64,000 bases of DNA from Thermothelomyces thermophilus ATCC 42464 (Eukaryota; Ascomycota; Sordariomycetes; Sordariales; Chaetomiaceae), in the NCBI RefSeq assembly GCF_000226095.1, contig NC_016477.1, positions 2,046,001 through 2,110,000 on the forward strand, given 5' to 3'. The first letter of the stretch is position 1. Every line of letters starts with the position of its first letter. Positions 8,372 to 30,680 of this stretch are shown here, piece after piece. A program made the position numbers and the translations under genes. The notes below the pieces were generated by a model, which was given only the letters and a program-made list of their open reading frames with translations, ran no database searches and was not told where the DNA came from.

Positions 8372-8818
8372 TATTATAGATAAGCATATAGATGGCCTAG
8401 TAGGCTACAGCCAGGACGTAGGACATTCTAATAGCTAATTACTTAATAGACCAATTAGAAGATTATCACCGCCAAGACTAAGGTCTTCACTAGTAATAAT
8501 AACATATTACCATCGATAACGCGGAATTACGAAGTAAAAGGAAAAGTAGTACTAATGATAACTATTAAAGAAGGATAGACAATTATATATATATAGCTAG
8601 CTAGTTACTCGTTATAATAGACTCTAGGAGTTTACTAGTAATAGTAACTACAATTACAGTACTTATACTAAGTATTGCTAACTACTATAAGGAATAACTC
8701 TAGTGTTATTATAAACCCTTTGGCTTTACTAAATCCCTTAGATAACCTATACGCTTATCCTACTTAACCTACCTTTATCTAAACCCTTTTAGAAGAAGTC
8801 TAAGTTAGGTTCGTTATA
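8372..8818 (+). repeat. E2 5' LTR (447 bp, U3 type B)
   Basis: It starts TATTATAG, a mutated TGTCACGA, and ends CGTTATA, a mutated CGTCACA. It is collinear with both E4 LTRs and both E5 LTRs over its full length. It contains a TATA-like run at about 8586-8594 and the R-start 11-mer at 8637-8647. Confidence 0.85.
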
Positions 8819-8820
8819 TA

Positions 8821-8831
8821 TTACTATTACT
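8821..8831 (+). promoter_or_regulatory. E2 primer-binding site, self-primer type
   Basis: The 11-mer TTACTATTACT lies two bases inside the LTR. Undoing CpA/TpG to TpA changes gives TTGCTACCACT, complementary to the unmutated form of the R-start at 8637-8647 (AGTGGTAGCAA). Confidence 0.6.
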
Positions 8832-8845
8832 CTCTTTATTCTATT

Positions 8846-9560
8846 ATAGTTTAGAACGAAGGTGACTTTGACCTTGATATCGATATAGCTACTAACGTTA
8901 TAGCTAAATAGCTGCTTGCCTAGCTTAGGTAACTTTAGTAGCAGGTCTAGGAGTTAGACTAGAGAGATAAGGCTACTTAAGCTCGAATTAAGGAACTCGA
9001 GAACGGCGAAAAGCACTTACAGAAACTAGTTAACGAGGCTTATACTAAAATCAAGGCACTTAAGACTGCCAAAGCAAGCCGTATCGATTTATATATAAGA
9101 AAGACTTGCTAGTCTCTGATAGACCAAGTTAGCAGCCTCCTATACTATATAGTTTAGATAGGACATACTTAAGTCTTAGCTTAATGACAAGGCATTAATA
9201 TAACTATTTTATAATAGCTTAAAAGAAAAGGTTAAAGACAAGTTATATAAGTATAATCGGCCTAAGACTCTAGACAAATATATCATACAGGCTATTAAAA
9301 TTGACGATCGGCTCTATATATAGGAGTAGCAGAAACAAGGTCAAATAAATGGAACTATAGTCAAGGCTAACAATGAAAAAAATAGGTATATATTAGTACC
9401 TTATATAGGACACATCCTAGAGCTATAGATATAGACGTAACGCAGAAGCAGGACTAGAAGAAGACGACTAAAGATAAGTCTAATATTACCTACTATAACT
9501 ATAGAAAGAAAGGACATTACAAACGAGAATATCGAAGCCCGAAGAAAGAGTAGAAACTAG
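8846..9560 (+). pseudogene. E2 gag, internally deleted
   Basis: The start codon has become ATA (8846-8848). The N-terminal coiled-coil part is followed near 9085 by a jump to the segment that lies about 290 bp further on in E5. Most of the capsid core is therefore missing. The C-terminal zinc knuckle survives only as a damaged remnant near 9490-9530. Confidence 0.7.
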
Positions 9561-11179
9561 TCCCTAGAAAGGAAATTGCGGTCATTGACGAAACTACTAA
9601 GGATATTATCGAAGTAGTAGCTATAAGCTATGAAGATAGGGGTAATAATATAAATAGTCTTAGATATAATAGTAATGATAAAGATAAACAAATACCGTAC
9701 TCTAAGCTAGTTATTATAGATTTAGAAATAGGTATTACTAAATAGGATATAGTAAGAGAGTATATACTACCGATTTCGATTCTCCTAGTCTTAAGGTAAT
9801 AGGGTTTTATAGTTATATAGAGATAGGATAGATTATCGATAACTAATACCTAAGGAATCGAGAGACCTAGACCTAATGTTCTATTCCTCCAAGAACGAAT
9901 CGAATAGTACTATAATAAAGTTTTCCGGCTCAACATAGAACTATACGAATAGGATAGACGCTTAACTCGACTTGCTTAGCAAAGTAATAAGATAAGGGAC
10001 AAGATAAGGGAACTCTAACGTATTATAGAAACTATTAAAGGAGAATAGCCTATGATATATAATAGGCCTAATAGCTATACTAAGTATTTCAACGACTAGT
10101 AACTTAGCTATAATGTATAGAACCTAGAGCACTAGTTTATATATATAAACTATAGAAAAGACAAACGTATATAGGAAAACTATTAGAGAAAATATTCCTA
10201 CCTTAGTATTAAGGTACCTATAGTCTACGTATAGTAGGAAGGATTTAGGAAAGAGTTCTAATACCTTCCAGGCAACGTTATATAACTATACCCTCGATAC
10301 GAGGTATACGTATAAGTGCCCTGGTTCTAGTATATAGTATATAAATACTAATACTACTTTTACGATAAATTCGAAAATAATCATTAGCTGACCTAATGAG
10401 GAAATAAAGACAGAAGCCTCTACCCTATAGAATAGATCTATAATATAGAAAACAGAGCGGCCGAATTGCTCTAGAAGATCGAAGCCTATAATCTAGAAAG
10501 CATTATGGCAGTTCTAAAACAAGCCTAGCCTAGGTACTATAGAATAGAACAAAATATATAGGACTCGTGCTAGAGTAACGATTACCTTTACTATACGGAT
10601 AAAAAGAAATCGCGGATTCGGGAGCTTTAGATAAAGCTATAGTATATACGACGAAAAGTAGAACAGACCTAATAGTAAGAAGCTATAAGCACTTAATAGC
10701 TTATAGAAATAAGTACGATCGACGAAGCCGCTATTAGCCAAATAATCGAAGAGGTTAGCATTAACTTAGGAAACGGGTTAGGGCCTTTCGAGGGGCCCGA
10801 AAACCATTAACACCTATATAGTAGTAAGTAGTAGTATAGTATAGGAGGAACTAGTATAAGAGACTACTATATCGAGACTTCCTAGTGGAGATATAGGAAA
10901 TCGCTATAATTTTTAGGTAACAATGGTAAGACAAGCGACTATGGATAATAGTATAATAGAAATGGTATAAAATGCTTATACTAATAGATAGTAGAGTAGA
11001 GATAAACCTAATTTTGCTAATACTTATAAATTAGCTATAGGTATCTTAGAGAATAAAGCGGAAGTATAATATAGTTAAAGGGCCATTTCCGACGTAATAG
11101 ATATATAGGGAGACCAAACTAATTAATATTACTATAGTAAGGAAGACTATAGTAGTCGTATTTAGCATCATAGATATAG

Positions 11180-11618
11180 TATCACGATTTAGCTATATAA
11201 GGCGACCTAACAAGGCATACAAAACCAATTAGAAACCATAAGATCCAAGGACTAATTAGGAAGTGATCATAGTAATCGCACTTTGATCAAGGCAAGCACC
11301 CAAACAATGATCAAAGGAACGTAGCAGCGATTACACGATCAGAACCTAAGGGGGAACACTTAGGAATAAGGGAACCAGACAAATATATTAGATAGTTAGT
11401 CACTCGTTTTAATAGACTCTAGGAGTTTACTAGTAATAGTAACCTTACAATTATAATATTTATACTAAGCACCGTTATTAACTACTATAAGAGATAACCC
11501 TAGTGTTATTATAAACCCTTTAGCTTTACCAAATCCCTTAGACGACCTGCCTATTTGTCTTGCTCAATCTACCTTCGTCTAAACCCTTTTAAAAGAAGTC
11601 TAAGTTAGGTTTGTTATA
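11180..11618 (+). repeat. E3 5' LTR (439 bp, U3 type C)
   Basis: It starts TATCACG and ends TTGTTATA. The U3 (11180 to about 11395) is unlike the other U3 types and still rich in CpA, whereas the R-U5 half is thoroughly converted. The R-start 11-mer is AGTAATAGTAA at 11432-11442. Confidence 0.8.
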
Positions 11619-11620
11619 CG

Positions 11621-11631
11621 TTACTATTACT
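11621..11631 (+). promoter_or_regulatory. E3 primer-binding site, self-primer type
   Basis: TTACTATTACT lies two bases inside the LTR. Reversing RIP gives TTGCTACCACT, the exact complement of the deduced R-start AGTGGTAGCAA in this LTR and in the type D LTR (18577-18587). Confidence 0.6.
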
Positions 11632-11645
11632 CCCTTTGTTCTATT

Positions 11646-12640
11646 ATAGTTTAGAATAGAGGTAACTTCGACCTTAATATCGATATAGCTACTAACGTTA
11701 TAGCCAAATAGCTACTTACCTAGCTTAGTTAACTCCATTAGCGAATCTAGGAGTTAGACTAGAGAGATAAGGCTACTTAAGCTCGAATTAAGGAACTCGA
11801 GAACGGCGAAAAGCACTTATAGAAACTGGTTAATGAGGCCTACGCCAAAATTAAGGCACTCGAGGGCGCCAAAGCAAGCCGTATTAAGATCGAACTACCT
11901 AGTAAATATGGAGGAACTAAGGAAGATCTTGTAGGATTTCTGATAAACCTTTGATCCTACTTCTAGCTTAATAATAACAAGTTTCTAGACGATAAAGCCA
12001 AAGTTCTCTATATAGCTATAAGACTAGAGGGCAAGGTACTTAGATAGTTTAAGCCTATATAGAACGATTATCTTACTAAGGAAGACGAAGACGACCGAGA
12101 CACGTTTATATAAGTAGTCTTTCGATCCTATGACTATTTTAAAGAAGAGCTTTGGAAGGTTTTTAGTGACAAAGACGAGAAGATTTATATATAAGAAAGA
12201 CTTGCTAATCTCTAATAGACCAAGTTAATAGCTTCCTATGCTATATAGTTTAGATAGGATATACTTAAGTCTTAGCTTAACGATAAGGTATTAATATAAC
12301 TATTTTATAATGGCTTAAAGGAAAAGGTTAAAGACAAGCTATATAAGTATAATTAGCCTAAGACTTTAGACAAATATATCGTATAGGCTATTAGAATTGA
12401 TAATCGACTTTATATATAAAAGTAATAGAAATAAGGTTAAATAAATAGAACTATAGTTAAGGCTAATAACAAGAAAAAGCGAGTATATATTAGTACTTTA
12501 TATAAGACGTACCCCGAAGCTATAGATATAGATATAATATAGAAGTAGGACTAGGAGAAGATGACTAAAGACAAGTCTAATGTTACCTACTATAACTATA
12601 GAAAGAAAGGGCACTATAAGTAAGAATATCAAAGCCTAAA
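11646..12640 (+). pseudogene. E3 gag remnant
   Basis: The start ATG is mutated to ATA at 11646. The order matches E4 gag: an N-terminal coiled-coil (KELENGEK-like), a capsid core and a C-terminal zinc-knuckle region near 12590-12635 where Cys codons read as Tyr. Stops are in all parts. Confidence 0.75.
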
Positions 12641-14059
12641 AAAAGAGTAGAAGATAGTCCTTAGAAAGGAAATTATAGCTATCGACAAAACTACTAAGGA
12701 CGTCATCGAAGTAGCGGCTACAAGCTATAAAGATAGGGGCAATGATATAGATAGTCTCGGATACGATGGTAATGGTGAAGACGAATAAGCATTATACTCT
12801 AAACTAGTCACTATAGACCTAGAGACAGGTCTTGCTAAATAGGACACGGTAGGAGAGTATATACTACTAATTTCGATTTTCCTAGCCTTAAGGCAGTAGG
12901 GTTTTATAGTTATATAGAGGCAGGATAGATCGTAGATAACCGACACCTAAGGAATCGAAAGACCTAGACCTAATGTTCTATTCCTCTAGGAACGAATTAA
13001 ATAGTACCGTAATAAAGTTTTCTAGCTTAATATAGAACTATATAAATAGGATAGGCGCTTGATTTAACTTGTCTAGTAGAGCGATAAGATAAGGGACAAG
13101 ACGAGGGAACTTTAATATATCGTAGAAACCATTAAAGGAAAACAGCCTATAATATATAATAGGCCTAATAATTATATTAAGTACCTTAATGACTAGTAAC
13201 TTAGTAATGATATGTAGAACCTAGAATACTAGTTTATACGTGTAAACCACGGAAAAGACGAGTATATATAGGGAAGCTACTAGAAGAAATACTCTTACTT
13301 TAGCATTAGAATACCTATAGTCTACGTATAGTAGGAAGGATTCGGGAAAGAATTCTAATACCTCCTAGGTAACGTTACACGACTATATCCTTAATATAAG
13401 GTATATATACAAGTACCCTAGTTCTAGTATATAGTATACAAATGCCGATACTACTTCTGCGATAAATTTGAAAACAATTACTAGCCAACTTAACAAGGAA
13501 ATGAGGATAGAAGCTTACACCCTATGGAATAGGTCTACAATATAAGAAATAGAGCGGCCGAATTGCTCTAGAAGATCGAGGCCCGCGATCTAGAAGGCAT
13601 TACAATAGTTCTAAGACGAGCCTAGTCTAGGCACTATAGAATAGGACGAGACATATAGGACTCGTACTAGAGTAACGATTACCTCCATTACACGGACGAA
13701 AAGAAATCGCGAATTTAGGAGCTTTGGATAAAGCTATAGTACGTACGATGAGAAGTAGAACGGACTTAATAGTAAAAAGCCGTAAGTACTTAATAGCTTA
13801 CGGAAATAAGCACGATCGATAAAGCCGCTATTAGCCAAATAACCAAAGAGGTTAGCACTAACCTAGGAAATGGGTCAGGGCTCTTTAAGGGGCCTAGAAA
13901 CCATTAACGCCTATATAATAACGAGTAGTAGCATAATATAGGAGGAACTAGTATAAGAGACTACTATATCGAGACCTCCCGGTAGAAATATAAGAAATCG
14001 CTATAATCTTTAGACGATAGTAGTAAGATAAGTAACTATAGATAATAGTATAATAGAAA

Positions 14060-17000
14060 TAATATAAAATGCTTATATTAGTAGATAATAAAGTAAAGAT
14101 AAACCTAATTTCGCTAACGCTTGTAAATTAGCTATAGATACCCTAGAGAATAAAGCGGAAGTATAATATAGTTAAAGGGCTATTTCTAATATAATAGGTA
14201 TATAAAGAGACTAAACCGATCGATATTACTATAGTAAGGAAGATTATAGCAGTCGTATTTAATATCGTAGATATAAGCAACGATAAAGATATAATATTAG
14301 GGTTACTATAGTATAAAGATTATAACCTAGACATTAGTTAGAAGAATAGTAGCTACCTATAACCCTAAATGGAGTTATATTTGACTAGCGAGATAGGGAG
14401 TACGCAAGGATCGCAAGTAGACAATGCTTAGGGGAAGGTATATCCTACAGATCTACTATAAGAGACGGATAGTAGCAGACAGACCACTATAGACTCTAGA
14501 AGAGGCGGCATAATGACATCGATATCGCAATAGGAGGAACGAGCCGAACCGCCGATAGCTATTCTCTCTATTAATGAATACGGAGCACTATAATTAGAGT
14601 AATAGGTTAAGACAGGAGAAATCGCTAGTATTGCTATAGATAGAACTAAGTTTGTATACTATTAGAAAACCGAGAGACAAGATAGGACTAGGGAAGTACC
14701 AAAGGAATACAAAGGACACCTAGCATTTAAACCGAAATATCTGGAAGGATTAGTAGAATACGGCCTATAGGATTACGAGATCAAGCTTAAGGAAAGAATA
14801 TAACTAAAGTTCTTCAAGATCTACTATATAAGCTAGACTTAGAATAAAGAACTTAAGCGATATTTAGAGGAGAACCTTTAAAGAGGATATATCTGCCTAT
14901 CGATATTGCTAGTAGGCTATCTAATTCTACTTGTACCTAAGAAAGACGGAAAGCTATAGTTATATATCGACTATCGGTAACTTAACAAATAAACTATAAA
15001 AAATCAATACCTATTACCGTTAATCTTATAGCTCTAAGATTAGTTAGTAGGAGCCTAATATTTTATATATGTTGACTTACTATCGGCCTATAACTATATA
15101 TAGATCAAAGAAGGCAACAAGTAGAAAACGGCCTTTAGGATGCCCTATAGCTACTATAAGTACCTTATTATGCTATTCGGACTCATAAATATATTAGTAA
15201 TATTCCAAGCCTTAATTGATTAAGCTATCTAACCCCTTCTCGATAAATTTACAGTATATTATCTCGATAATATACTTATCTTCTCTAAAACGATAGACGA
15301 ACACCGGAAGTATATAAGAATAGTGCTAGACGTATTATATATATATAAGCTATTAGTTAACAAGGAAAAGAGCGAATTCTATATTAGGAAAATAGTGTCT
15401 TTAAGATACGAAATATCCCTAGGATAAATCTAGATAGAACCTTCAAAGGTTAAAGCTATCAAGGATTAGCTATAACTAACGTTAGTCACGGAAGTATAAA
15501 GCTTTATCGGATTTGTAAACTTCTACCGAATGTTTATTAGAAATTTCGGAGCGATTATACGACCTTTATATAAACTTACTAAGAAGAACGCTAAATTCTA
15601 ATAGGAAGAATAGTATAAGTAAGCATTTACGTAGATCTATAACGCTATTACTAAAGATCTAATACTAGTACTACTAGACCCTAAGAAGCTATTTAAGGTA
15701 GAAACGGACGTTTCAGACTATACTATTAGAGGACAATTAGGGTAACAAGACAAACAAGGGAAGCTATATCCTATAGCCTTCTTTTTAAAGAAGCTCAATA
15801 GACTATATCTTAATTATCCGATCTATAACAAGGAACTACTTATAATTATCAAAGCTTTTGAGGAATAGTAACTATATCTTAGTAATATAATCGAACTAGT
15901 ATATGTATATATAGATTATAAGAATTTACGGTACTTTATAATAATAAAGGAGCTTAATAGATAATAAATACGATAGGTAGAATTCCTTATGGAATTTAAT
16001 TTTAAGATCTGCTATAAGAAGGGCAAAGAGAACGTATAAGTAGATGCCTTAAGCTGACGAACGGATTATACGAAAGGACGAACGGAAATAATGCTACCGT
16101 TATTTAAGGAATAAATAGACGGAACGCTATATTATAAAATATAGATACCTATAAAAGATAATCCATTCGACTCGTTCCTAGAATGTTACGTAATCTTTCG
16201 AGAAGAAAGGATCTACAAGGCGTAGTATTAAGTAATAACCGGACTAGTAGTACCTAATAGAGTAAAAGAAAAAGATAGAAAACTCCAATACTAAGGCAAA
16301 GTGTATATTTATAATAAAGACCAATAGTTACAAATGATTTGAGAACTCTATAAGTCGAAACTTGGAAGATATAAAGGAGTTACAAAGACTATCGTATAAG
16401 TCAAAAAATATTACGACTTTCTATAGTTAATAGTATAAGTTAAGAAAGTCGTATAGAGCTATAATATCCATAATCAAAGCAAAACGATATAATATAAGCT
16501 ATATAGGCTACCTTAGCTATTACTAATAGCTAACAAACTATAGAATTCGGTTATAATGGACTTTATTGCAAAGTTACTAGAATCTAAGGATGTAGCTATA
16601 AAAGTAATCTATAATAATATTCTTACTATAGTAGACCGCCTAATTAAATAGATATACTTCTTTCTCCATAAAGAGTCCTAGATAGTAAAACAGTTAGTAG
16701 ACGTAATCTATTAGTAAGTTATATTAGTATATACTTAGCTATAAGAATAGATTACTAATAGAGATACTAAGTTCATATTAAAGTTCTAATAAGCGTTAAT
16801 ATAACAATTAGATATTAATAGTAAGCTATTAATAGCATATTACCTATAGACTGACGGACAAATGGAGCGACTAAATTAAGTTATCAAGTAATACCTCTAT
16901 TCTTATATTAACTACTAGTAAGATGACTAGGTCATACTATTACTAATAGTATAACTTGCTTATGATATAATACTAATAGAAACGACTAAAGTTATATCAT

Positions 17001-17580
17001 TCTTTATAAACTATAGATATAAAGTAGACCTTAGGCAAAGACTAGAGGTTATAGTGCTAAGAGTAGTAGTTAAAGCAGAACAAATGTACGTACTATATAA
17101 GAAGCTTAAAATGGAACTTGAGTTTATTAGAACTAAAATAAAGAACTACTATAATAAATATAGGCTCAAGGGACCTTACCTAGAGAAGGGAGACAAAGTC
17201 TATCTTATCATATAAAACCTACGAACTAAATGACCAAGTATAAAGCTAGACTTTAAAAAGGTCAGACCCTTTATTATCAAAGAACGAATCTCGATATCTA
17301 ACTATTAACTATCGTTACTATCATCTATACGACTATAGACAGACGTTTTTTATATTTCACTTCTCGAACCAATACCGAAAAACGCTAAGGTTACTATATA
17401 TATCGAAGCAGAAGACGAGGAGGAAGAATAGGATGTCAAAGAAATTCTAGATTCGCGTATTATTAATAAGGAACTATAGTATCTAGTCAAATAGCTCGAT
17501 TTCGGATTAGAAGACAACTTATAGGAACTAGTCAAGAACTTAAACTACCCTAAGAAACTAGAATAGTTCCATCGCCAAAA
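14060..17580 (+). pseudogene. E3 pol remnant with chromodomain
   Basis: Collinear with E1 pol. The protease segment is near 14080, RT about 14860-15600 (catalytic region near 15260 with Asp codons altered), RNase H about 15690-16060, integrase about 16360-17010 and chromodomain about 17410-17570. RIP has destroyed the frames. Region 12640-14060 upstream holds the damaged coiled-coil and aromatic-rich spacer seen best in E4. Confidence 0.8.
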
Positions 17581-17929
17581 CCTAGATTAACTGTAGGCAC
17601 TAGTTTAGACAAAATAGCCAAGTCGGCCTCTAATAAATCTAGGCCTAAGGAGGACTAATCAAATAGGACGTTAGCACCCTAGGACTATATATTATTAATA
17701 ATACGTGCTTTAGAATCCTATACCTTCTGTTTTTCTGCCTCTATTTCCTCTAGAGACTATATACCTTGATGAAACAGCTTAGAACCCTACTCCTTTAAGA
17801 AACGTTTCTAACGATAAAGACGAGCTAATCGACTAATAGCCATCTAAAGTTAAATCTAAAGAATAAAAAGGGCCTCTTTAGCATTAGCCTCTTCTTATTC
17901 TATATGCTTTTGTTTAGATATAATCTTCG

Positions 17930-18141: not shown

Positions 18142-18329
18142 GGTATACTATTAGGATTTCGAAGATTAGCGTTTAGAGATATGATCTACTATCTTGTCAG
18201 TCACTAGCAGTGCGAAAAAAAGAAAAAGAGGAAAAAAAAATTAAGAGGTATATATAAAAAGAATATTAGCGCTATTTGAAACGGCCTAAGATAAGCTTTT
18301 AGGTTAAAAGCCTTAAAGGAAGGGCATTA

Positions 18330-18656
18330 TATTATGAAAATATATATATAGAACGCTACCTAAGCCGCCTCCCTAATGGACCAATAGGATAGTAGGAATA
18401 ATAGGCTAATTAGAACAGGATTATACTTGGCAAGAAATGATCCTAGCAGAGGATCACTAGCTTACGATATGAGCTAGGTAAGCTAGTATAGAGGATCACT
18501 ATGACTGTTAGTAATCCTAGGATTATATATATATATATAGATAGTCACTTGTTACGGTGGACTCTAGGAGTTCACTAGTGATAGTAATCACAACCATAGT
18601 ACTTATACCAAGCATCGTTAAATACTGTACGAGACAACTCTAGCGTTGTTATGAAC
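18330..18656 (+). repeat. E3 3' LTR, left part (U3 type D and start of R)
   Basis: It begins TATTATG after AGGAAGGGCATTA. The U3 is distinct from types A-C. The R-start 11-mer is AGTGATAGTAA at 18577-18587. It is cut at 18656 by E4; the last five bases TGAAC (18652-18656) are the left target duplication. With 23667-23768 it makes a 429 bp LTR. Confidence 0.85.
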
Positions 18657-19104
18657 TGTGACGAACCCAACTCAGACTTCTTCTGAAAGGGTCCAGACGG
18701 AGGTGGATTGGGCGGGACAAGCAGGCGGGTCGTCTGAGGGATTCGGTGAAGCCAAAGGGTTCACAACAACACTTAGAGTTGTCTCTCACAGTAATCAGCA
18801 ATGCTTGGTATGAGTACTGTGATTGTGATTGTTACCACTGGTGAACTCCCAGAGTCCACTATAACGAGTGACTAGCTAGCTATATATACACAATTGTCTG
18901 TCCTTCTTCAATAGTTATCACCAGTACCACTTCTCCTTTCACTTCGTGATTCTGCGTTGTCGACGGTGACATGTTATTATCACTAGTGAAGACCTTAGTC
19001 TTGGCGGTGATAATCTTCTGATTGGTCCGTCAAGTGATTGGCTGTCGGAATGTCCCGTGTCCTGGCTGCAGCCTGCCAGGCCGCCCATGTGCTTATTCGT
19101 GACA
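18657..19104 (-). repeat. E4 3' LTR (448 bp, U3 type B)
   Basis: On the minus strand it starts TGTCACGAATAAG and ends GTTCGTCACA. A purine-rich AAGGAGGGG (19110-19118, minus strand) precedes it as the polypurine tract. The R-start 11-mer is intact: AGTGGTAACAA on the minus strand, at 18829-18839. A TATA run lies at about 18881-18890. Confidence 0.95.
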
Positions 19105-19231
19105 CGATGCCCCTCCTTCAAGGCTTTCGACCCGAAAGCCCTCTTAGGCCGTTTCAAATAGCGCCAACAACCCTTCGCTTGTGAGTACTGCATTCTCCCT
19201 GTTTCTACGTCGCGGTCGCCATGTTGACAAA

Positions 19232-19330
19232 ATGCCGATAGAGAAACGGAAGTCGCATTCTGCACGTTACCGTGCTTCCCTTGCTCAGAACATCGCTGAG
19301 AACGGTTTTGTCGTTATGCCTTGCTCGTGT
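19232..19330 (+). pseudogene. E4 truncated antisense ORF (N-terminus of Zn2Cys6-like protein)
   Basis: This runs opposite to E4 pol. The ATG at 19232 begins MPIEKRK and a basic segment of about 30 residues, reaching M-P-C-S at the first cysteine. There the internal deletion fuses it to antisense RT sequence, and the frame runs on to 19420. The start is the same as in E5, showing that the ancestor carried the full ORF. Confidence 0.6.
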
Positions 19331-20760
19331 TGTTCTTCCCATTGGAATTCAGCATTCTTCTTGGTAAGTTCGTGCAAAGGTCGTGCGATCGCTCCAAAGT
19401 TCCTGATGAACATCCGGTAGAAGTTCGTAAATCCGATGAAACTTCGTACTTCCGTGACTGACGTCGGTCGTGGCCAATTCTTGATGGCTTCAACCTTTGA
19501 AGGTTCCATCCGGATTTGTCCCGGGGATATCTCGTATCCCAAAAACACCGTTTTCCTGACGTGGAATTCGCTCTTTTCCTTGTTGACTAATAGCTTGTAC
19601 GTGTGCAGCGCGTCCAGCACTGCTTTCACGTGCTTCCGGTGTTCGTCCATCGTCTTAGAGAAGATGAGTATGTCGTCGAGATAACATACCGCAAATTTGT
19701 CGAGAAAGGGTCGGATAGCTTGATCAATCAGGGCTTGGAACGTTGCCGGCGCGTTCGTAAGTCCAAATGGCATGACGAGGTACTCGTAGTGGCCATAGGG
19801 TGTCCTAAAGGCCGTTTTCCACTCGTTGCCTTCTTTGATCCGTATGTAGTTATAGGCCTAGTCGACACATAACCGTAGCTTTCCGTCTTTCTTAGGCACA
19901 AACAGGATTAGGTAGCCTGCTGGCGATGTCGACGGGCGGATATGTCCTCTTCGAAGGTTCTCCTCCAAATATCGCTTAAGTTCTTCGTTCTGCGTCTGGC
20001 TCGTGTAGTAAATCTTGAAGAACTTCAGTCGTGCTCCTTCCTTGAGCTTGATCTCGTAATCCCATGGGCCGTGTTCTAGTAATCCTTCCAGATGCTTTGG
20101 TTCGAATGCTAGGTGTCCTTTGTATTCCTTTGGTACTTCCCTAGTCTTGTCTCGTCTCTCGGTTTTCTGGTAGTATGCGAACTTGGTTCCGTCCATGGCG
20201 ATGCTAGCGATTTCTCCTGTCTCAACCCACTGCTCCAATTGCAGTGCTCCACATTCGTCAACGGAGAGAACAGCTATCGGCGATTCAGCTCGTTCCTCCT
20301 GTCGCGATATCGATGTCGTTGTGCCGCCTCTTCCAGAGTCCGTAGTGGTCTGCCTGCCACTGTCCGTCTCTTGCGGTAGATCCGTAGGACATGCCTTCCC
20401 CTGAGCATCGTCCGCTCGCGATCCTTGCGTGCTCCCCATCTCGCTAGTCAAATACGACTCCGTTCGGGGTCGTAGGTGGCTACCATTCTTCTAGCTGATG
20501 TCCGGGTCGTAATCTTCATACCATGGTAACCCTAATATCATGTCTTTGTCGTTACCCATGTCTACAATGCTAAATACGACTACTATAGTCTTTCCTACCA
20601 CAGTGATGTCGATCGGTTTGGTCTCTTTACGTACCCATTACGTCGGAAATGGCCCTTTGACTATGCCATGCTTCCGCTTCATTCTCCAGGGTATCCGCAG
20701 CTGATTCACAAGCGTCGGCGAAATCAGGTTTATCTCTGCTCCACTGTCCACTAGTGCGAG
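19300..20760 (-). pseudogene. E4 protease and partial reverse transcriptase
   Basis: The protease motif DSGAEI is near 20745. RT reads in two long frames: 19858-20451 (to KDGKLRLCVD) and 19285-19773 (from MPFGLTNAPATFQ, with CYLDD near 19690). Between them about 117 bp present in E1 is missing. That segment holds the RLDL motif A with a catalytic Asp. After the RT thumb region the sequence jumps, at a GAGCAAG shared by both ancestral flanks, to the 3' region, so RNase H, integrase and chromodomain are gone. Confidence 0.85.
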
Positions 20761-20769
20761 CATTTCGTG

Positions 20770-22180
20770 CTGTTTCCACTGTGCTGTTATCTACAATCGC
20801 TTGTCTTGCCGCCGTTGTCTAAAGATTGTGGCGATTTCCTATGTTCCTGCCGGGAGGTCTCGATATAGTGGTCTCTTGCGCCAGTTCCTCCTGTATTACG
20901 CTACCACTTGCCGCTGCGCGGGCGTTAATGGTTTCCGGGCCCCTCGAAGGGCCCTGACCCGTTTCCCAGGTCAGTACTGACCTCTTCGGTTGTTCGGCTA
21001 ATAGCGGCTTCGTCGATCGTGCTCATTTCCGTGAGCCATTGAGTGCTTGCGGCTTCCCACCATTAGGTCCGTTCTGCTTTCCGTCGTACGTGCCATAGCT
21101 TCGTCTGAAGCTCCCGAATTCGTAATTTCTTTTTGTCCGCGTGATAGAGGCAATCGTTGCTCTAGCACGAGTTCTATGTATCTCGTCCGGTTCCGTAGTG
21201 CCTAGGCCAGACTCGTTTTGGAACTACCGTGATGCCTTCTAGATTGCGAGTTTCGATCTTCCAGAGCAATTCGGCCGCTCTATTTCTTACATCGTAGACC
21301 CATTCTACAGGGCACAAGTCTCCGTCCCTGTTTTCCTGTCGGGTCGGCTAGTAATTGTTTTCGAATTTGTCGCGGAAGTGATATTGGCATTCGTGTGCCA
21401 CACACTGGAACCAGGGCACTTGTGCATGTGCCTCGTGTCGCGGGTGCAGTCGCGTGGCGTCGCCTGGAAGGTATTGGAATTCTTTCCCGAATCCTTCCCA
21501 TTGTACGTAGACCGTAGGTACTCTAATGCTGAGGTAGGAGTGTTTCTTCCAGTAGCTTTCCTACGTACGTTCGTCTTTTCTGCGGTTCGCTCGCATGAAC
21601 TGGTATTCTGGGTTCCGCACGTCGTTATTAAGTTGCTAGCCGTTAAGATGCTCGGTGTAGCTATCGGGCCTATCATATGTCACGGGCTGTTCTCCTTTGA
21701 TGGTTTCCACGATACGTCAGAGTTCCCTCATTTCGTCCTTCATCTCATCGCTCTGCTGGGCGAGTCGAGTCAAGCGTTTATCCCGTTCGCGCAGTTCCGT
21801 GTTAAGTCGGAAAACTTCGTTGCGGTACCATTCGATTCGTTCCTGGAGGAATAGAGCATCGGGTCTAGGTCTTTCGATTCCTTAGGTGTCGGTTGTCCAC
21901 GATCTATCCTGCCTCTACGTGACCGTGAAACCCTACTGTCCTAAGGCCGGGAGAATCGAAGCTGGCGGTGTATATTCTCCTGCCATGTCCCATTCGGCAA
22001 GACCTGTCTCTAGATCCACAGTGACCAGTTCGGAGTTCGGTGCTTGTTCGTCTTCACCGTTGCCGTCGTGTCCGAGACTGTCCGTGTCACTGCCCTTGTC
22101 TTCGTAGCTCGTGGCCGCTACTTCGATGACGTCCTTGGTGGTTTCGTCGATAGCCGTAATTTCCTTTCCTGGGGTTGGTT
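20770..22180 (-). pseudogene. E4 spacer region between Gag and protease: coiled coil plus aromatic-rich domain
   Basis: About 450 codons lie between the Gag zinc knuckle and DSGA. On the minus strand 21700-21865 reads as a heptad-rich helix (RLNTELRERDKRL). 21180-21620 is rich in Trp, Tyr and Phe (VYVQWEGFGKEFQYLPG, CQYHFRDKF). Frames are broken by a few TAG codons. Related damaged sequence is in E1, E2, E3 and E5. I do not recognise the domain. Confidence 0.6.
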
Positions 22181-22189
22181 TCTATCCTT

Positions 22190-23186
22190 TCTTCGGGCTT
22201 CAGCATTCTCGCTTGTAGTGCCCTTTCTTTCTATAGTTATAGTAGGTGACATTGGACTTGTCTTTGGTCGTCTTCTTCTGGTCCTGCTTCTGCGCTGCGT
22301 CTACATCCATGGCTCCAGGGTGCGTCCCGTACGAAGTACTGACGTACGCTCGCTTTTTCTTGTCGTTAGCCTTAACTGTGGTTCCGTTCATTCGACCTCG
22401 TTTCTGCTGCTCTCGTGTGTAGAGTCGATCATCGATTCTGATGGCCTGCGCGATGTATTCATCCAGAGTCTCAGGCCGATCGTACTTGTATAGCTCGTCC
22501 TTAACCTTTTCCTTCAAGCCGTTATAGAACAATTGCATTAACGCCTCGTCGTTAAGCTAAGACTTGAGCATGTCCTGTCTGAATTGTGCGGCGTAGGAGG
22601 CTGCTAACTTGGTCTGTCGGAGATTGGCGAGTCTTTCTTGCATATGAATCTTCTCGTCTTTGTCGCCAAAAACCTTCCGAAGCTCTTCTTCGAAACGGTC
22701 GTAGGACCGAAAGACTGCCTGTGTGAACGCGTCTCGGTCGTCTTCATCTTCCTCGGTAAGATAGTCGTTCCACGTAGGCTTGAACCATCTGAGTGCCTTG
22801 CCCTCTAGTCTCGTGGCTACGTAGAGGACTTTGGCTTTGTCATCCAGAAACTTGTCGTCATTAAGCCAGAAGTAGGATCGGAGGTTTGTCAGGAATCCTA
22901 CAAGATCCTCCTTGGTTCCTCCGTATTTGCCAGGTAGTTCGATCTTGATACGCTTCGCTTTGGCGCCCTCGAGTGCCTCGATTTTGGCGTAGGCCTCGTT
23001 GACTAACTTCTGCGAGTACTTTTCGCGGTTCTCGAGTTCCTTGATTCGAGCTTGAGCAGCCTTGTCTCTCTGGTCCAACTCCTAAACCCGCTGCTGGAGT
23101 TGACCAAGCTGAGTGAGCAGCTGTTCGGCCGTGACGTCGGTAGCCATGTCGATGTCGAGGTCGAAGTCACCTCCGTTCTGAACCAT
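22190..23186 (-). pseudogene. E4 gag
   Basis: It starts at ATG 23186 (MVQNGGDFDLDIDMA). An N-terminal coiled coil (QRDKAAQARIKELENREK) is followed by a capsid domain (KYGGTKEDLVGFLTNL, VFRSYDRFEEELRKVFGD). The C-terminal knuckle near 22200-22240 reads Y-x2-Y-x4-H-x4-C, where the first two positions were probably Cys before RIP. Two in-frame TAG codons, near 23083 and 22557, split the ORF; otherwise it is intact. Confidence 0.85.
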
Positions 23187-23200
23187 GATAGAACAAAGGG

Positions 23201-23211
23201 AGTGGTAACAA
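23201..23211 (-). promoter_or_regulatory. E4 primer-binding site, self-primer type
   Basis: The minus strand reads TTGTTACCACT two bases inside the 5' LTR, unmutated. It is perfectly complementary to AGTGGTAACAA in the E4 3' LTR (18829-18839); the 5' LTR copy (23386-23396) has one RIP-type change. Confidence 0.75.
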
Positions 23212-23213
23212 CG

Positions 23214-23661
23214 TGTGACGAACCCAACTCAGACTTCTTCTGAAAGGGTCCAGACGGAGGTAGATTGGGCGGGACAAGCAGGCGGGTCGTCTAAGGGATT
23301 CGGTAAAGCCAAAGGGTTCACAACAACACTTAGAGTTGTCTCTCACAGTAATTAGCAATGCTTGGTATGAGTACTGTGATTGTGATTGTTACTACTGGTG
23401 AACTCCCAAAGTCCACTATAACGAGTGACTAGCTAGCTATATATACACAATTGTCTGTCCTTCTTCAATAGTTATCACCAGTACCACTTCTCCTTTCACT
23501 TCGTGATTCTGCGTTGTCGACGGTGACATGTTATTATCACCAGTGAAGACCTTAGTCTTGGCGGTGATAATCTTCTGATTGGTCCGTCAAGTGATTGGCT
23601 GTCAGAATGTCCCGCGTCCTGGCTGTAGCCTGCCAGGCCGCCCATGTGCTTATTCGTGACA
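23214..23661 (-). repeat. E4 5' LTR (448 bp, U3 type B)
   Basis: Same length as the 3' LTR, with TG...CA ends. The TATA run at 23439-23445 lies about 49 bases upstream of the proposed transcript start at 23396. Confidence 0.95.
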
Positions 23662-23666
23662 TGAAC

Positions 23667-23768
23667 CCTTTGGCTTCACCGAATCCCTTAGACGACCTGT
23701 ACGCTTATCCTGCTTAATCTACCTTCGTCTAAACCCTTTTAGAAGAAGTCTGAGTTAGGTTCGTCATA
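23667..23768 (+). repeat. E3 3' LTR, right part (R-U5 end)
   Basis: It continues the LTR cut at 18656: CCCTTTGGCTTCACC through TTCGTCATA. Removing E4 and one TGAAC restores a continuous LTR. The preceding five bases (23662-23666) are the right copy of the target duplication. Confidence 0.9.
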
Positions 23769-24312
23769 TAAAGGCACTAGGGCCTAATAAAGGCCTAGAG
23801 CTCCCTACTAGTATAGGCCTATATAGGGGCTATTAGCCTCTGTAACTTTCTTTTTAGGGTTCAAGTCCTAGGGGTTAGTACCTCCTATTATGCCCATAGC
23901 TAGGGGAGAGAAACTATAAAGCACCTAGTTGTATAGTGCCCGAACCTACTAAGAAGCCGAACGTAGGAATCCTAGGAAATACAGTCGTAAAGGGACCTAG
24001 ACCTCGTTCTATAGGGGATAGGGACCTGTAACTATCGTTTGGCAAGGAGGGTTCTACAGTGGCTAATAGACCTAGGGAGGTTCCCGGAATACCGCCTTGT
24101 AAGGAGGCTAGACCAGGAAGGAAGGCCTCTATAGGGCTATTCTAGCCACTTCTCCTTTTCTTTGTAGTGTATTAATACTCCGGATTAGGCGTTAGAGGCG
24201 GGACAGAGGTTTTTATCTAGCCTATTAGGCACGGTTTCCTTTGTATATAACTAGAGAGGCTCTGGCATGCTTATTAGCATAGTGGTATAGGACTAATAAT
24301 AATAATAATAAT
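23769..24312 (+). mobile_element. LINE 3' end with TAA-repeat tail
   Basis: Near 23907-23942 the frame reads R-E-T-I-K-H-L-V-V-(stop)-C-P, the RET-x-KH-L-x3-CP signature that closes ORF2 of Tad-clade LINEs. After about 350 bp of 3' sequence comes a (TAA)6 tail at 24294-24312, where similarity to coding LINE ends. It may be the other half of the LINE at 5343-8371, with an intervening loss, or a separate 5'-truncated copy. Confidence 0.65.
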
Positions 24313-25440
24313 ATTTCCTCCTTAAAGCGTATAACAATCTCTTAGGATTTGTAGAAGCCGAAGTCCTACCTAATAAGTTAGCTAGAGCGGTAAAGAACTT
24401 TATTAACTGTAATATTCTTCTTTGTTAGGGGCTCCTGATAATTATAGTTGTTAATAAGGGATCTAAATTCAAAGGGGAAGCGAAAGCTATCCTAGAGGAA
24501 CTAGGGGTAAAATATATTATTATTTCTCCCTATAACTCTAGGGCCAACGGTATTAATAAGGCTAGGTATATATCTATTATAGCTGCCTTAGCAAAGATGA
24601 CTATAAGGACTAGAAAGAACTAGCGATAGCTTCTTCCCTATATTCTATATACTAACTATACCACCATTCGAAATAGCTATAGCCACTTACCCTTCAACCT
24701 TATCTATAACTATAATCCTATTAGCCTGATCGAAAACGATATCCTAACCTAGCGAATATTTTACTAGGACTCTATAGCCGTCTAACTAGACAGGGAAAAT
24801 CAAGTAGAGGCCTGTCTATAATTGCTAGAACTCTATACTAAGGTACTACTTGATACAGAATTCGATTTAGAAGTTGCCACTAAAAAGGTTACCAAAGCCA
24901 GACGAAAAATGGCTAAACGCTAAAATAAAGCCTACTACCGTGAATTTAGAGCTAAGAATGCCTAAATCAAGGTAGGCAATCTTATTCTAGTTTATAACAA
25001 TATCCGGTAGATCAATATAAGCTTGTTTCGAAAACTCTAGTATCGGTAGTATAGCCTATACCAGGTCTAGGAAGTTAAGAATAGGAATACCTATTACCTA
25101 GAGACTCTTGATAGTATAACTATATAGATACTATATTCTATAAACTATATTAAGAAGTTTTCAAGTAGGATAGAGTTTAGCTTAAAGCCAATAGATCTAA
25201 TAGTTTTCTAGGCAAATAGAACCCCTAGAACTAGGAAGTAGGTTCTTCGCTATTAGAAGCGCTTAAAGAAGTAATAGTAGAAGAGGAAGCTCCTAGACGA
25301 ACTAGGTAACTATAACTAAGTGACTGACTTACTAGATCTAAAGTCTAAGAGTAACGACGGTAACAGTAGGAGCTTATAGTCGAACTAACTAGAGGGAAAC
25401 TACCGGGATTTTGACCTTTAAGCCGTTAATAGAAGTACAA
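24313..25440 (+). pseudogene. Second Ty3/gypsy family: integrase core and C-terminus
   Basis: Reading through RIP stops gives LLGFVEAEVL, IIVVNKGSKFKGEA (a DxGSEFK-type Asp motif), IISPYNSRANG with a following degenerate ERGH-like block (the Glu motif), then a basic C-terminal region. The protein differs from the E1-E5 integrase. It starts abruptly after the LINE tail, suggesting the LINE landed inside this integrase gene. I find no LTR for it. Confidence 0.65.
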
Positions 25441-25869
25441 GTTAACCCTATTCGATTTCATTTCTATTTACTCTTTACTATCTAAACCCCTAATTACCCC
25501 TGTTCTATACTACCTTTACCCCTTTTCCCTAAATTCCTAATTCCCTACCTATAAATGCTATCTACCCTGTTTATAAGCTACCCGTTAATCCCTAACTACA
25601 CTATCTAAATCCGTTGAAATTAGAGAGCTCTTTTTCTATATTATTAGCTAGACGTTCTTTAGCTAGCTGTTAAGGTCAAATTTGGCCTAACCTATAAGTC
25701 GAAGGTTAGGATCCTAGGAATTATCGTTAACTATATCTTCCTATAAGCACTTCTTATCACTCTAGTAGTAGTTTCTATACCGTCTATCTAGGACGGGACC
25801 TATTAAAACGTAGCTATAGAATGGCTATATAGTATAAATAGTAATAGGCTTCTTGTTCTTTAGAGGGAT

Positions 25870-26523
25870 AACCTTAGTTATCGACCTTTGGTAAGACTAT
25901 TTATAGGCCTAGTACAGTATCGGATTTCTATACCCCCGATTAGCTCTTCCTCTAACTAGAGGGAGGAAGTTATTCTTATATATCCCCAAATACCTAGATA
26001 AATAAACCGAGAACTCTAGCCTAATAGGTAACTATAGTATAAATCTACTAATCAAACGGACTACTATTATTAATTTCCGCGAAAACTAGGTATAACTACT
26101 TTACTAGAGCTCCCTTATAGGTATAGAAGAATTTTATATAGGTAGGAGCAAGTCTTAGGATTCTAAATATCTACTCTAAGGTATTAGGATTAGGGTTTAG
26201 CTCCTAGCAAATATATAGAACTACCTATATCTTAAGGTACTTAATAAAGAAGAATCTATAGTATAAAAGGAACAGTTTATACTAGTACTATATTAAGGCT
26301 ACCTCTAGATAATCTAAAGGTATTAGGGGATCTTCTAGGTAAGCTACTCTCACTACCTATACAAACTTAGGAAGCGCTAGGAACTAATTATCCTAGGTAG
26401 TCGTCAAATCTACTAGCTAATTAGTTATCGAGGGAAGTATAGGCTTAATATCCTCGTCGATTTCTATATCTTCCTAGATAGAGGATTTATATCTCTAGCG
26501 TTTAACTCTTTCGGTAGACATAG
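25870..26523 (-). pseudogene. Decayed ORF, product unknown
   Basis: From ATG at 26523 (MSTERVKR) about 210 codons can be read if TAG is taken as a former Gln or Trp. There is an acidic N-terminus (DIEIDEDIKPI) and then a Leu/Tyr-rich body (YLEVALIQYQYKLFLLYYRF, with stops read through as Gln). It could be a Gag-like protein of another element. No zinc knuckle or enzyme motif is visible. Confidence 0.35.
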
Positions 26524-27199
26524 TAGTTAAACTTGCTTATAGGAGCTTATAGCAAGTTTAAAGGGAAAGTAATATAGGAAGAAGTAGTACTAGCTATCTA
26601 AGTAGAGGAAGACAATTATAAGTAAGAGTTAGTTAAAAGGGTAGAAAAGTAGAAAGAAGTTTAAAGAGAAATAGGAGATACTTATCCTTTAAATAATTTA
26701 ATAGTTAGGGTATTAGAACTACTAGACTTCTATTCAAAGAAGGTATACCTAGGCTAGAATGATCTATTATATAATAAGTTATACTCCTTTATTACCATTA
26801 GATGAAATATAAGTTAAAGTCATTCCTTAGAGTTATAATAAAGAATAACCTAATTATATAGAGGTTAATATAGTTACCTATCGGATAGCACTAGAACCGG
26901 TAAATATAGCCTAGAATAGCTAGATAAGGAAGGTATCTAAAAGGAACTAGAAAGTCTATAAATACTCTTAATTTAACCTTCCTCCTCTCTCTTTTCTATA
27001 ACTAATAACTATAAACTATAAATTGCTAATTTACGAAAATGCCAAACAAAATATCTTCTCTATCTAGTTAGATAGCTAGGTACTATTAGGTAAGTATTCT
27101 ACTAAGCAATTTATTTCTAAATGTTAGTAATCTAGGTTTTAAGCGACTCTACATAAGTCTTCCGACGGTAAACACGTATAGGGACAATGTTAGAGAGTT

Positions 27200-28970
27200 A
27201 GATTAAAGAAGAAGAGAAGGATCGGTTCCTCTCCCTCTGACTAGAGGGCCGAGCTAACTAAGTGTAGGACTACCTTTACTCCTCCTAGGGGAGGATCCCG
27301 AAACCCTAAGGCTCTTTCTTTGGTACCTCCTTATGACTTAGGTTCTAGGGGAAGAAATCGCTAACTACCTAGGGAGCGGCAATACTTAGAAGCTCTTTAA
27401 TAAACTATATACTAGGCCTATTCCCTACCCTAGGGAAGTAGTAGCTAGAAGGCTAGAGTAGCTTATAAGTCCTAGTCTTGAGACTAATAAGTAGATTATT
27501 AGCTACCTATTTCCCTTATATATAGGGCTATATAGTTAGGGAAAGATATACTTTGGCTAGCGTTAGTATAATATTACTATAAGCCTATATAATATTAAAG
27601 GGCTTATATTAAGAAAGGAGTACCTAAACGGTTATAACCTCCTGAACCTACTTTAATATATATTAGTATCTTATAAGCTATATATCTATATCTTTCTAGA
27701 AGCTGTTAGCGACCTAAAGCCTAAATAGTTAGTACTACCCCTATAGAAATAAAAGGATATAGCTAGAAAACGATTCTAGGTAATCCTTTGCCATTTATAA
27801 TAGTTATACTAAGCTATAGCTATATATAACTAAATAAAGTCTTATCTTTATTATATAGACTCCTATCCTTCTAATAAGTAGAGTCGAAAAGACCTATTTA
27901 AGACTCTATAGAATAAGGTCATTTACCCTAGCTTTCTTTTTCTACTACCCGGAGGTTATATATATTAGCTAATAGTATAGGTAACGTCAAAGCAAAAAGG
28001 CTAGTAGGAATATAGTATCTAGGTCGCTAAGTTCTATCGCTTCTACTTCTAAGAGATTTAATAGGGAGATAAGATATAGCTTAAGCTCCCCTAGTAGAAG
28101 GGCCGTCTATATGTAGGGCTAAAAGTAATAAAGGCTAAGAACAAGATATTAATACTCTAGCTTAGAACAATCTAGATAGCTCTAGGCTATCCGCCTAATA
28201 GCTCCCTCTGGCTAGAGAAGCCGAAGAACCCTTAGAGGGATATCTATCCTTATTAACTACCTAGGTAGCCTATAGACAAGCCACTTTACAGGCCGCTAGT
28301 TTTATAATTATAGCTATAGCTAGGACAGGCGAAATTAGTTATCTCTATCTAGATAGAGGAAGGAGAGGACAACCCCCTGCCGATAAAAGAGTAACTAGTT
28401 ACGAAAAAGGATCACTAGGTTCCCCTAGACAATATTATCTAGCAGTTTCTTAGTAAGGTACCTAAGGGACTTAGGCTACCTTAGCTACTTTAATAGGCGC
28501 TTAAGTATCCCTATAAACTAAGAATAGCTATTTACTAATATATAGTAGAATAGATAGAAGAGTAACTTATAGCTATAGAAGGATAAGGAAAACCTTTAAG
28601 ATTATAGTAATAGTAACTAGTTAAGTAGGTACCTTTAACAATATAACGGCCGCCTAGTCAGACTAAGACAAAGCCAAATAAGCTAATATAGATATAGGAG
28701 ATACACTTGACCTAAGCTACTAAGAAAGGACAGGCTTATTAGTATCATTCTAATAATAATCTAGCTAAATAGACTTAGCCCCTACTATTTAAACGCTTAG
28801 GGCCTAAAGATCTAGAGCTAGTTCCTAAGTATCTGCTATAGTTTATAGGCTAGGATACGCTAGATACTAAAGTAGAAGCCTAGTAAAGGCATTAGGCATC
28901 TAAGAAACGGCCCTCGCCTAAAGGTAATAGTAGAGCTAAGCAGGCTAGGCATTACAAGGAACGCAAGTAA
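27200..28970 (+). pseudogene. Decayed long frame, product unknown
   Basis: With RIP stops read through, a continuous frame shows a basic, Gln-rich C-terminal part around 28450-28680. The region looks coding because almost all breaks are TAG, but I recognise no family. Confidence 0.3.
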
Positions 28971-30216
28971 GGTTTTTAGGTCCAAATTTGCTAGTAGGAG
29001 TCTTAGGGCGAATTCGAAGGGAAAGTATAGACTAGGGCTAGGAGTTCTTGATATAACTAAAGGGATATAAGATATAGTTTTATTTTTCCGGTTCCGTAGA
29101 GCTTTACTATATATAATAGGTATAAATAAGGGGTTACCTATCTAGGGGCGCTAGATAAGATAGACAAGGACAATAGATAGCTTTTAATACTCGTTTACTC
29201 TAGTAGATTAGGGTAATAGGATATAGTTCTTCTTTCGTTTATAAGTTAGGAATATCTTTTTCTACGTAAGTAGACTCTTTTACGTCTATCTAGAGGGACA
29301 TCACTATCGCCGCCTTCGCCCCTATCGTCGTTACCATCTAGATAGTCGGACTTACCTACTGTGACCACAAATACTTGGACGCCTTAGACATTTTAAGCTA
29401 AGGCTCCTCCCTATCTGACTAGACAAAGGTTTGGTTCTAGAGGTACTAAGTGGTACCCTAGAGGGTTAGCACTAGCTTAATATAGACGTTTCTAATGTTA
29501 TTAATAAGCGCTTTTAATGCTTCTAGTCTAAGGTAGCTAGCTCTTAAGTGCTAAAGATCCTTAGTATCCTCTCTTATAATAGGTAATGCTTATATCCAGG
29601 ACCTTTTACTATATATAGCAAATACGTTCTATAAGGATATATAAACGTTTATAATACCTACTTTACTAATTAAGACGTAGTCTAGGAAGCTTAGGTAGTA
29701 GAAAAGTAGCTTATATTTAAGGAAGGTAAGATTGTACTTACGTTCTAACTTATAAAGTATAACGTTATTTTCTAGTATTCCGAAACGTAGTAAGTAATCT
29801 AAGCTATAGTACTAAGTACCTACCTTAAGTAATAGAGCTTCTGAGATAATATTAATATAGAATCCTTTGACGATAGCGATATCCTTAAGCGTTAGGCTCT
29901 TAGTATACGGTCTATATAGTCTATCTAGAATATTCTTAATTACCTAAGTACCCCTCTTACTAATAGGAAAGGTTATTATACCTACTTTAATAAACTTAGA
30001 ATCTTCTACCTTAACAAATGTCCTAGATAAAAGGAACTTCTTAATATTAACTAAGTAAGTCGCGCTATATAAGTCTAATAGAGTGTTTTCTAAAAGAGAA
30101 TAGCATTATAAAGCGATTATACTAAACACCCTATAGTAAGTTAAGAGCTTACTAAGCAATTAAGGGCTAATAATTAATATATTAAGGGAACTAGGGTATC
30201 CTACCCCTAACTACTT

Positions 30217-30221
30217 AGAAC
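30217..30221 (+). repeat. E5 target-site duplication, left copy (AGAAC)
   Basis: AGAAC directly precedes the 5' LTR and recurs directly after the 3' LTR at 37809-37813. Confidence 0.9.
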
Positions 30222-30667
30222 TGTCATAGATAAGCATATAGACGGCCTAGCAGGCTACAGCCAGGATACAGGACATTCTAACAGCTAATCACTTGACAGA
30301 CTGATCAGAAGATTATCACCGCTAAGACTAAGGTCTTCACTAGTAATAATAATATATCACCATCGACAATACGGAATTACAAGGTAAAAGGAAAAATAGT
30401 ACTAGTAATAACTATGAAAGAGGGACAGACAATTATATATATATAGCTAGCTAGTCACTTGTTAAGTAGACTCTAGGAGTTTACTAATAGTAATAATTAT
30501 AATTATAGTACTTATACTAAGCATTACTAATTACTATAAGAGATAACTCTAGTGTTATTATAAACCCTTTAGCTTTACCAAATCCCTTAGATGACCTGCC
30601 TACTTATCCCTCTTAATCTACCTTCGTCTAAACCCTTTTAGAAGAAGTCTAAGTTAGGTTCGTTACA
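30222..30667 (+). repeat. E5 5' LTR (446 bp, U3 type B)
   Basis: TGTCATAG to CGTTACA, collinear with E2 and E4 LTRs. The R-start 11-mer is degraded to AATAGTAATAA at 30486-30496. Confidence 0.9.
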
Positions 30668-30669
30668 CA

Positions 30670-30680
30670 TTATTACTACT
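30670..30680 (+). promoter_or_regulatory. E5 primer-binding site, self-primer type
   Basis: TTATTACTACT, a RIP-mutated TTGTTACCACT, two bases inside the LTR. It pairs with the R-start type shared with E4; the 3' LTR copy is AGTAGTAATAA at 37627-37637. Confidence 0.6.

Follow-up and report, generated by a model that had tools for sequence, protein, structure and literature searches.

Self-priming of reverse transcription was elucidated experimentally in the retrotransposon Tf1, where the first 11 bases of the RNA pair with the primer-binding site (PBS), RNase H cuts between bases 11 and 12 (PMC7175516), and the leader forms three duplexes (PMC10085805). It is also described for Tj1 and other Tf1/sushi elements (PMC4600332, PMC6317226, PMC10085805), being inferred in these from the complementarity of the long terminal repeat (LTR) with the PBS; for SM-Tcn1, a Tcn1-clade element of a moss-relative, evidence of neither tRNA priming nor self-priming is given (PMC2864245). 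Here we analyze a gypsy-type LTR retrotransposon of the fungus Thermothelomyces thermophilus ATCC 42464, of which four copies with both sites lie in a stretch of 64,000 nucleotides of contig NC_016477.1 (positions 2,046,001 to 2,110,000, forward strand; hereafter the window). A first-pass annotation of the window had interpreted an 11-mer shared in complementary form by LTR and PBS as self-priming of the Tf1/sushi type, an interpretation that our analysis supports through covariation at two base pairs and the finding of no longer complement in a partial tRNA set. We consider it very probable that the element is primed, as Tf1 is, by the 11 nt at the 5' end of its own RNA, and that two matched primer/PBS alleles coexist in the genome.

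In the numbering used here, the 11-mer at the start of R is R1–R11 and the PBS is P1–P11, the partner of Ri being P(12-i). The copies fall into type I (AGTGGTAACAA in R, TTGTTACCACT in the PBS) and type II (AGTGATAGCAA and TTGCTATCACT), which differ at two pairs, R5:P7 (G:C in type I vs A:T in type II) and R8:P4 (A:T vs G:C). Repeat-induced point mutation (RIP) prefers CpA. The preferred sites (CpA, TpG) are absent from R5:P7 and R8:P4, and history is therefore kept at both pairs; RIP-prone bases occur in the pairs R2:P10, R4:P8, and R9:P3, at which history is lost. The first-pass annotation had recognized the exchange at R8:P4 and missed the one at R5:P7, and the second type that it deduced (AGTGGTAGCAA/TTGCTACCACT) was over-corrected for RIP, as an exact search of the genome at a spacing of 150–180 gave 0 pairs. 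Another candidate for the second type, an R ending in GTAA with a PBS beginning with TTAC (57 pairs), was rejected as the RIP product of AGTGATAGCAA/TTGCTATCACT. Many type II copies (e.g., L035 and L084) have insertions of variable length (CC, CCTAACC, etc.) at R+11 to R+17, right after the 11-mer.

The genome (38.74 Mb, seven contigs) was searched with patterns in which the RIP-prone positions were free and R and PBS were spaced by 157–187. This gave 393 type I pairs, 356 type II pairs, and 2 mixed pairs, and reversed control patterns at the same spacing had 0 matches genome-wide; the same-type patterns are palindromic, and their forward and reverse matches therefore coincide. The exact type I pair at its own spacing is present in 89 copies, against 0 for the reversed control pattern. 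Both mixed matches (L161 and L162) carry a type I R; L161 was rejected as a mixed copy, its apparent PBS being the R of an inverted neighboring LTR and hence false. Of the 750 copies with four readable diagnostic bases, 749 have a matched R and PBS. Part of this count could be false in the way of L161, and the three patterns (I/I, II/II, and mixed) leave out copies with a diagnostic base altered on one side only.

A sample immune to the error seen in L161 was taken irrespective of the 11-mers, with a pattern anchored outside both of them. It found 382 copies, of which 100 were analyzed (88 on C1 and 12 in the first 2 Mb of C2); the anchor misses copies with an altered base after the PBS, including four young ones (L109–L112, obtained separately). 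Among these 100 copies, to which all counts per 100 below refer, R8:P4 is a Watson–Crick pair in 99 (62 A:T, 37 G:C, and 1 G:T), and R5:P7 in 95 (56 G:C, 39 A:T, 3 G:T, and 2 A/C), with haplotypes distributed as 56 I/I, 37 II/II, and 7 others. Six A/T positions are constant on both sides in all 100. The RIP-prone pairs R2:P10, R4:P8, and R9:P3 are Watson–Crick in 89, 46, and 50 copies and behave almost independently (mutual information of 0.01, 0.02, and 0.00 bits). The check for covariation over many copies, which had been proposed with the self-priming interpretation, thus came out in its favor: independent variation is limited to RIP-prone positions, at which copies are expected to decay once inserted. 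Complementarity is complete (11/11) in 20 copies. The best match to the PBS within the 600-nt locus is the R site in 84 copies, with ties in 10 and a better match elsewhere in 6; it should be noted that the 11-mer alone is not unique in RIPped AT-rich copies.

Phylogenetic comparison points in the same direction. On a RIP-collapsed tree calculated without R and PBS, which recombination makes approximate, R8:P4 gave 8 independent pairs on starred branches, with a mean of 7.7 changing the same way and 0.0 the opposite way (median p 0.008, range to 0.031); the corresponding values for R5:P7 are 7.6 and 0.0 (median p 0.008, range to 0.070). The plain and RIP-collapsed trees of 116 copies require 17–21 changes per diagnostic site, a number that RIP noise and recombination forbid us to take as a count of independent compensatory origins. 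On the plain tree, a single clade for the 48 type II rows is rejected (p-AU 0.005, under a model that ignores RIP). In an alignment of 35 rows, 96.4% of the cells are paired versus 90.5% in shuffles, and the covariation score is 0.274 versus 0.155 (reached by 0 of 500 shuffles), figures that are inflated because every one of the 20 copies with exact complementarity among the 100 was included, the 100-copy sample being the fair set.

Pairing of the two sites is also predicted from folding. The full R:PBS helix is present in the unconstrained minimum-energy fold of six of seven chosen leaders, and the seventh lacks only one of its 11 pairs; the consensus fold of 35 chosen leaders contains 10 of the 11. 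The fold of L109 has a z of -2.93, with 1 of 200 shuffles as good. In 5 of 10 copies (L109, L114, L033, L014, and L035), a helix of about 13 bp joins the end of U5 to a segment further upstream in the LTR, comparable to the second duplex of Tf1.

Several observations weigh against the self-priming interpretation. L162 is a genuine mixed copy, and L113, a single copy, has a changed R8 with a type I PBS. Patterns for the RIPped forms gave 6 mixed copies besides the 57 matched ones, all six combining a type II R with T at P4. The 7 other haplotypes among the 100 copies comprise six one-sided changes (three P7 C to T, two R5 G to A, and one P4 C to T) and the ambiguous L080, which is paired at both diagnostic sites yet fits neither type. 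The number of mismatches shows no correlation with the extent of RIP (rho 0.08, p 0.43), possibly because the two sides become complementary again once RIP is complete. Two of the five measures applied to the 35-row alignment, pairs changed on both sides and further pair types, are not above shuffles (353 and 500 of 500 reach them). As for the additional duplexes of the leader, the one at the end of U5 stands out from shuffles only in L109 and L114 (7 and 14 of 200 as good), the other eight copies having 20–65, and the third "pretzel" duplex of Tf1 is unsupported in the 10 copies, with 15 to 180 of 200 shuffles as good. Finally, the covariation is in part block inheritance: the insertion column right after R is associated with R8 at V 0.86, and in 85 of 95 copies the type is shared by the nearest U5 neighbor.

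The last two results favor an explanation by mere shared descent, in which two subfamilies inherited their R and PBS and four diagnostic changes coincided by accident. We regard this as very improbable, given how the association is distributed along the aligned stretch. R and PBS are 160–183 nt apart, with U5 in between. The association with R8 is V 0.98 at P4 and 0.92 at P7. It does not exceed 0.62 at the 31 variable substitution sites of U5 (the maximum lying 18 nt past R), 0.43 in U3, or 0.30 downstream of the PBS. A nearly clean split between the types is seen at the two complementary pairs (V 0.90–1.0), the next substitution being at 0.62. The association with type climbs from 0.26 at position -10 to 0.94 at R5. 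Because RIP adds noise at many sites of U5 and U3, and because variation confined to one type scores low even without recombination, the test was repeated with purine/pyrimidine differences. All four combinations with R8, each in at least two copies, were found at 48 of 55 such sites in U3 and at three of four in U5, the latter a thin basis that is mostly one variable patch. When U3 is clustered at 85% identity, six clusters of two or more (97 of the 100 copies) and three single copies result, and both types occur in each of the six, in one of them through a single type II copy; the nearest U3 neighbor is of the same type in 65 of 95 copies. U3 is therefore reshuffled against the types, U5 is partly linked to them, and the matching of R and PBS is nearly absolute. 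The joining of U3 clusters to both primer types recalls the mosaic U3 of the fission-yeast Tosmo elements (PMC10085805).

Two further explanations accept the sites and dispute the primer. It is hardly credible that a host tRNA or tRNA fragment primes at the PBS, the LTR match being incidental. An 8-nt complement to tRNA-Thr does exist for type I, and AGTGGTAA, which we take to resemble a tRNA D-arm, was also counted for this explanation. However, 8 nt is within the range of the shuffled type I site (100 shuffles; matches of 5–9 nt, with 8 or 9 reached in 12), tRNA 3' ends match over at most 5 nt, and type II loses the tRNA-Thr match (best 6 nt) and keeps that to the LTR; a tRNA primer would also not make the PBS follow R. 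These values come from a partial tRNA set, 63 ARAGORN calls of which 31 are distinct, made around 30 of the 65 Rfam hits; the Rfam count is a lower bound, and the set covers internal tRNA fragments incompletely. The longest complement of the PBS is instead the element's own RNA, with 11 nt and 12 nt in the one type I and one type II copy tested, so that the suggested search for a better tRNA match, 3' ends included, found none longer within this set; the statement that the usual TGG is missing near the PBS also held, none lying at 20 nt or less from the LTR end in either copy. Somewhat less remote, and still improbable, is a pairing of the 11-mers for another purpose (packaging, dimerization, or control of translation), with minus-strand DNA primed otherwise. 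Covariation and folding do show pairing rather than priming, and to that extent speak for it. Against such a purpose stands the position of the PBS, which is at the normal place, 2 nt from the LTR end, as well as the partial tRNA set with no candidate in it and the length of 11 nt, which is that of the Tf1 primer (PMC7175516). A CG dinucleotide, moreover, lies between the 5' LTR and the PBS and also directly before the 3' LTR in five copies (E4 of the window, L159, L160, L126, and L127), the C and the G before the PBS each being kept in 72 of the 100 copies after RIP collapse. CG beside both LTRs fits a primer 3' end located 2 nt from the LTR: from the biochemistry of retroviruses, we infer that the unprocessed 3' ends would both read ..CACG, that integrase would trim two bases, and that the minus strand would begin right after the 11-nt primer.

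For self-priming, we propose the following course. Transcription would start at the A of the 11-mer, which would fold back on the PBS just downstream of U5, a pairing backed by the covariation and the predicted folds. RNase H would cut after nucleotide 11, by analogy with Tf1, and the freed 3' end would be extended into the CG dinucleotide and then into U5, the two primer/PBS alleles probably passing on as matched pairs. In the general retroviral scheme, the primer is itself copied into plus-strand DNA. A new copy can therefore owe its PBS to the R of its parent RNA, and matched pairs can arise without a second mutation. The exchange at R8:P4 had been put forward as a compensatory change; the covariation does support priming, although not necessarily two separate mutations, because a PBS copied from the primer in each cycle would pass on a change in R. 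Rewriting of the PBS and selection against mismatched recombinants are not separable by these data as the cause of the matching. More tentatively, as a possibility to which we give somewhat less than even weight, the two self-primer alleles may behave as cassettes, either incompatible or self-correcting, that circulate together in this genome. U3 modules join both types and U5 is only partly linked, yet R and PBS are matched almost throughout. Either the PBS would be rewritten from the RNA's own primer in each cycle, or mismatched recombinants would be unable to prime. If so, the first strand transfer would have left its trace in the genome as the drop of association where U3 is presumed to meet R, and this drop would mark the 5' end of the RNA.

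Within the window, both the R 11-mer and the PBS are present in four copies, here called E2 to E5, labels that were matched to the names of the first-pass annotation by our own assignment. Complementarity had been claimed for every such copy. It is unaltered (11/11) in E2 and E3, both on the plus strand and of type II with alterations at RIP-prone positions: E2 has AGTAATAGTAA in R (8637–8647) and TTACTATTACT in the PBS (8821–8831), and E3 the same two 11-mers at 11432–11442 and 11621–11631. In E4 and E5 the claim needs qualification. E4, on the minus strand, has a 5' LTR of 448 bp (23214–23661, TGTCAC...GTCACA) and, 2 nt (CG) inward of it, the PBS TTGTTACCACT (23201–23211). The R of this LTR reads AGTAGTAACAA (23386–23396), with a single RIP-type change versus type I and 10 of 11 positions paired with the PBS; the AGTGGTAACAA that had been quoted for it belongs to the type I 3' LTR (18657–19104, minus strand), where it lies at 18829–18839. 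E5, on the plus strand, has AATAGTAATAA in R (30486–30496) and TTATTACTACT in the PBS (30670–30680), which are complementary apart from RIP-type differences; both are RIP-altered forms of type I, in agreement with the assignment of E5 to the type of E4 once RIP is undone. An LTR copy with the type I R AGTAGTAATAA (37365–37804, plus strand) lies 7.1 kb downstream of the E5 5' LTR and is taken as the E5 3' LTR. The distance of about 49 bases between a TATA run and R applies to E4, measured from the far edge of the presumed TATA box TATATATA (23438–23445, minus strand) to R position 1, and is not general: the last TATA-like hexamer begins 39–53 nt before R1 in 95 of the 100 copies, with no hexamer found in 5. 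The stretches of E2, E3, and E5 have the signature of RIP (TA/AT index of 1.53–1.58, GC of 0.33), and the values for E4 are 0.95 and 0.50.

E4 is nested, in opposite orientation, in an older type II LTR of its own family (18522–18656 and 23662–23766), whose R 11-mer is AGTGATAGTAA (18577–18587, plus strand), and is flanked by a 5-bp target duplication (TGAAC at 18652–18656 and 23662–23666). E4 as a whole (18657–23661) probably carries an internal deletion, since it is about 2.5 kb shorter than the 7.5–7.6-kb copies in L159, L160, L126, and L127. Between E4 and E5, at 24400–24900, a further degenerate retroelement with integrase-like stretches was recognized by eye.

The coding capacity was read from L159, of which two gag and three pol pieces were searched. 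These gave a gag with zinc knuckle, aspartyl protease, reverse transcriptase (RT), RNase H, the zinc finger and core of the integrase, and a chromodomain; the integrase core, at 32.3 bits, is slightly below the cut-off of 32.6, and gag, protease, RT, RNase H, and chromodomain are above theirs. PF24626 (SH3_Tf2-1) was also matched, where Tf2-1 is part of the domain name and not a phylogenetic placement. Among solved structures, the integrase part is matched best by the Ty3 Gag-Pol chain 7q5b; RT is matched best by 4ol8, which we take to be the Ty3 RT, and next by 7q5b. Judged by these domains, the element is a chromodomain Ty3/gypsy retrotransposon (chromovirus). Its LTRs are direct and run TG..CA, the pair of L159 being identical over 415 bp, and 5-bp target duplications were seen by eye at L159, L160, L126, L127, and E4. 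L159, L160, L126, and L127 include both lightly and heavily RIPped copies of this family, and the L159 copy is itself nested, with pieces of another copy's internal region on both flanks.

The family's several hundred natural copies, in which RIP has caused decay at known positions, amount to a large natural mutagenesis set, in which pairs open to RIP drift apart after insertion and pairs closed to it remain matched. Such a set offers a statistical test of self-priming that needs just a genome, and lets one ask whether copying or selection keeps primer and PBS matched. We found no description of two primer alleles in one genome in the literature on self-priming (also in connection with compensatory changes), fungal gypsy elements, retrotransposons and RIP of the host, and Sordariales chromoviruses, as far as titles and the beginnings of abstracts go, and papers turned up on covariation were all unrelated; this is weak evidence of absence.

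The likeness to the Tf1/sushi elements outlined here is one of features and domains, not of RT or integrase phylogeny. With the Tf1/sushi chromoviruses and the Tcn1 clade, the present element shares the chromodomain and a self-priming predicted from a PBS without tRNA match (PMC6317226, PMC2864245, PMC7175516). Tj1 of Schizosaccharomyces japonicus likewise has a chromodomain and a proposed self-primer in the 5' LTR complementary to its PBS; it differs in its host and in being active in S. pombe, whereas the present element is known from sequence alone (PMC4600332, PMC10085805). With Tf1 of S. pombe, it has in common the 11 nt complementary to the PBS, the chromodomain, the lack of a tRNA primer (PMC7175516, PMC10085805; in the present element, as far as the partial tRNA set goes), and the pairing of primer and PBS within a folded leader, which in the present element is a predicted fold only. 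Unlike Tf1, which has a single open reading frame and the three-duplex "pretzel" not established for the present element, the copy read here has gag and pol in two open frames, and two primer alleles coexist in one genome.

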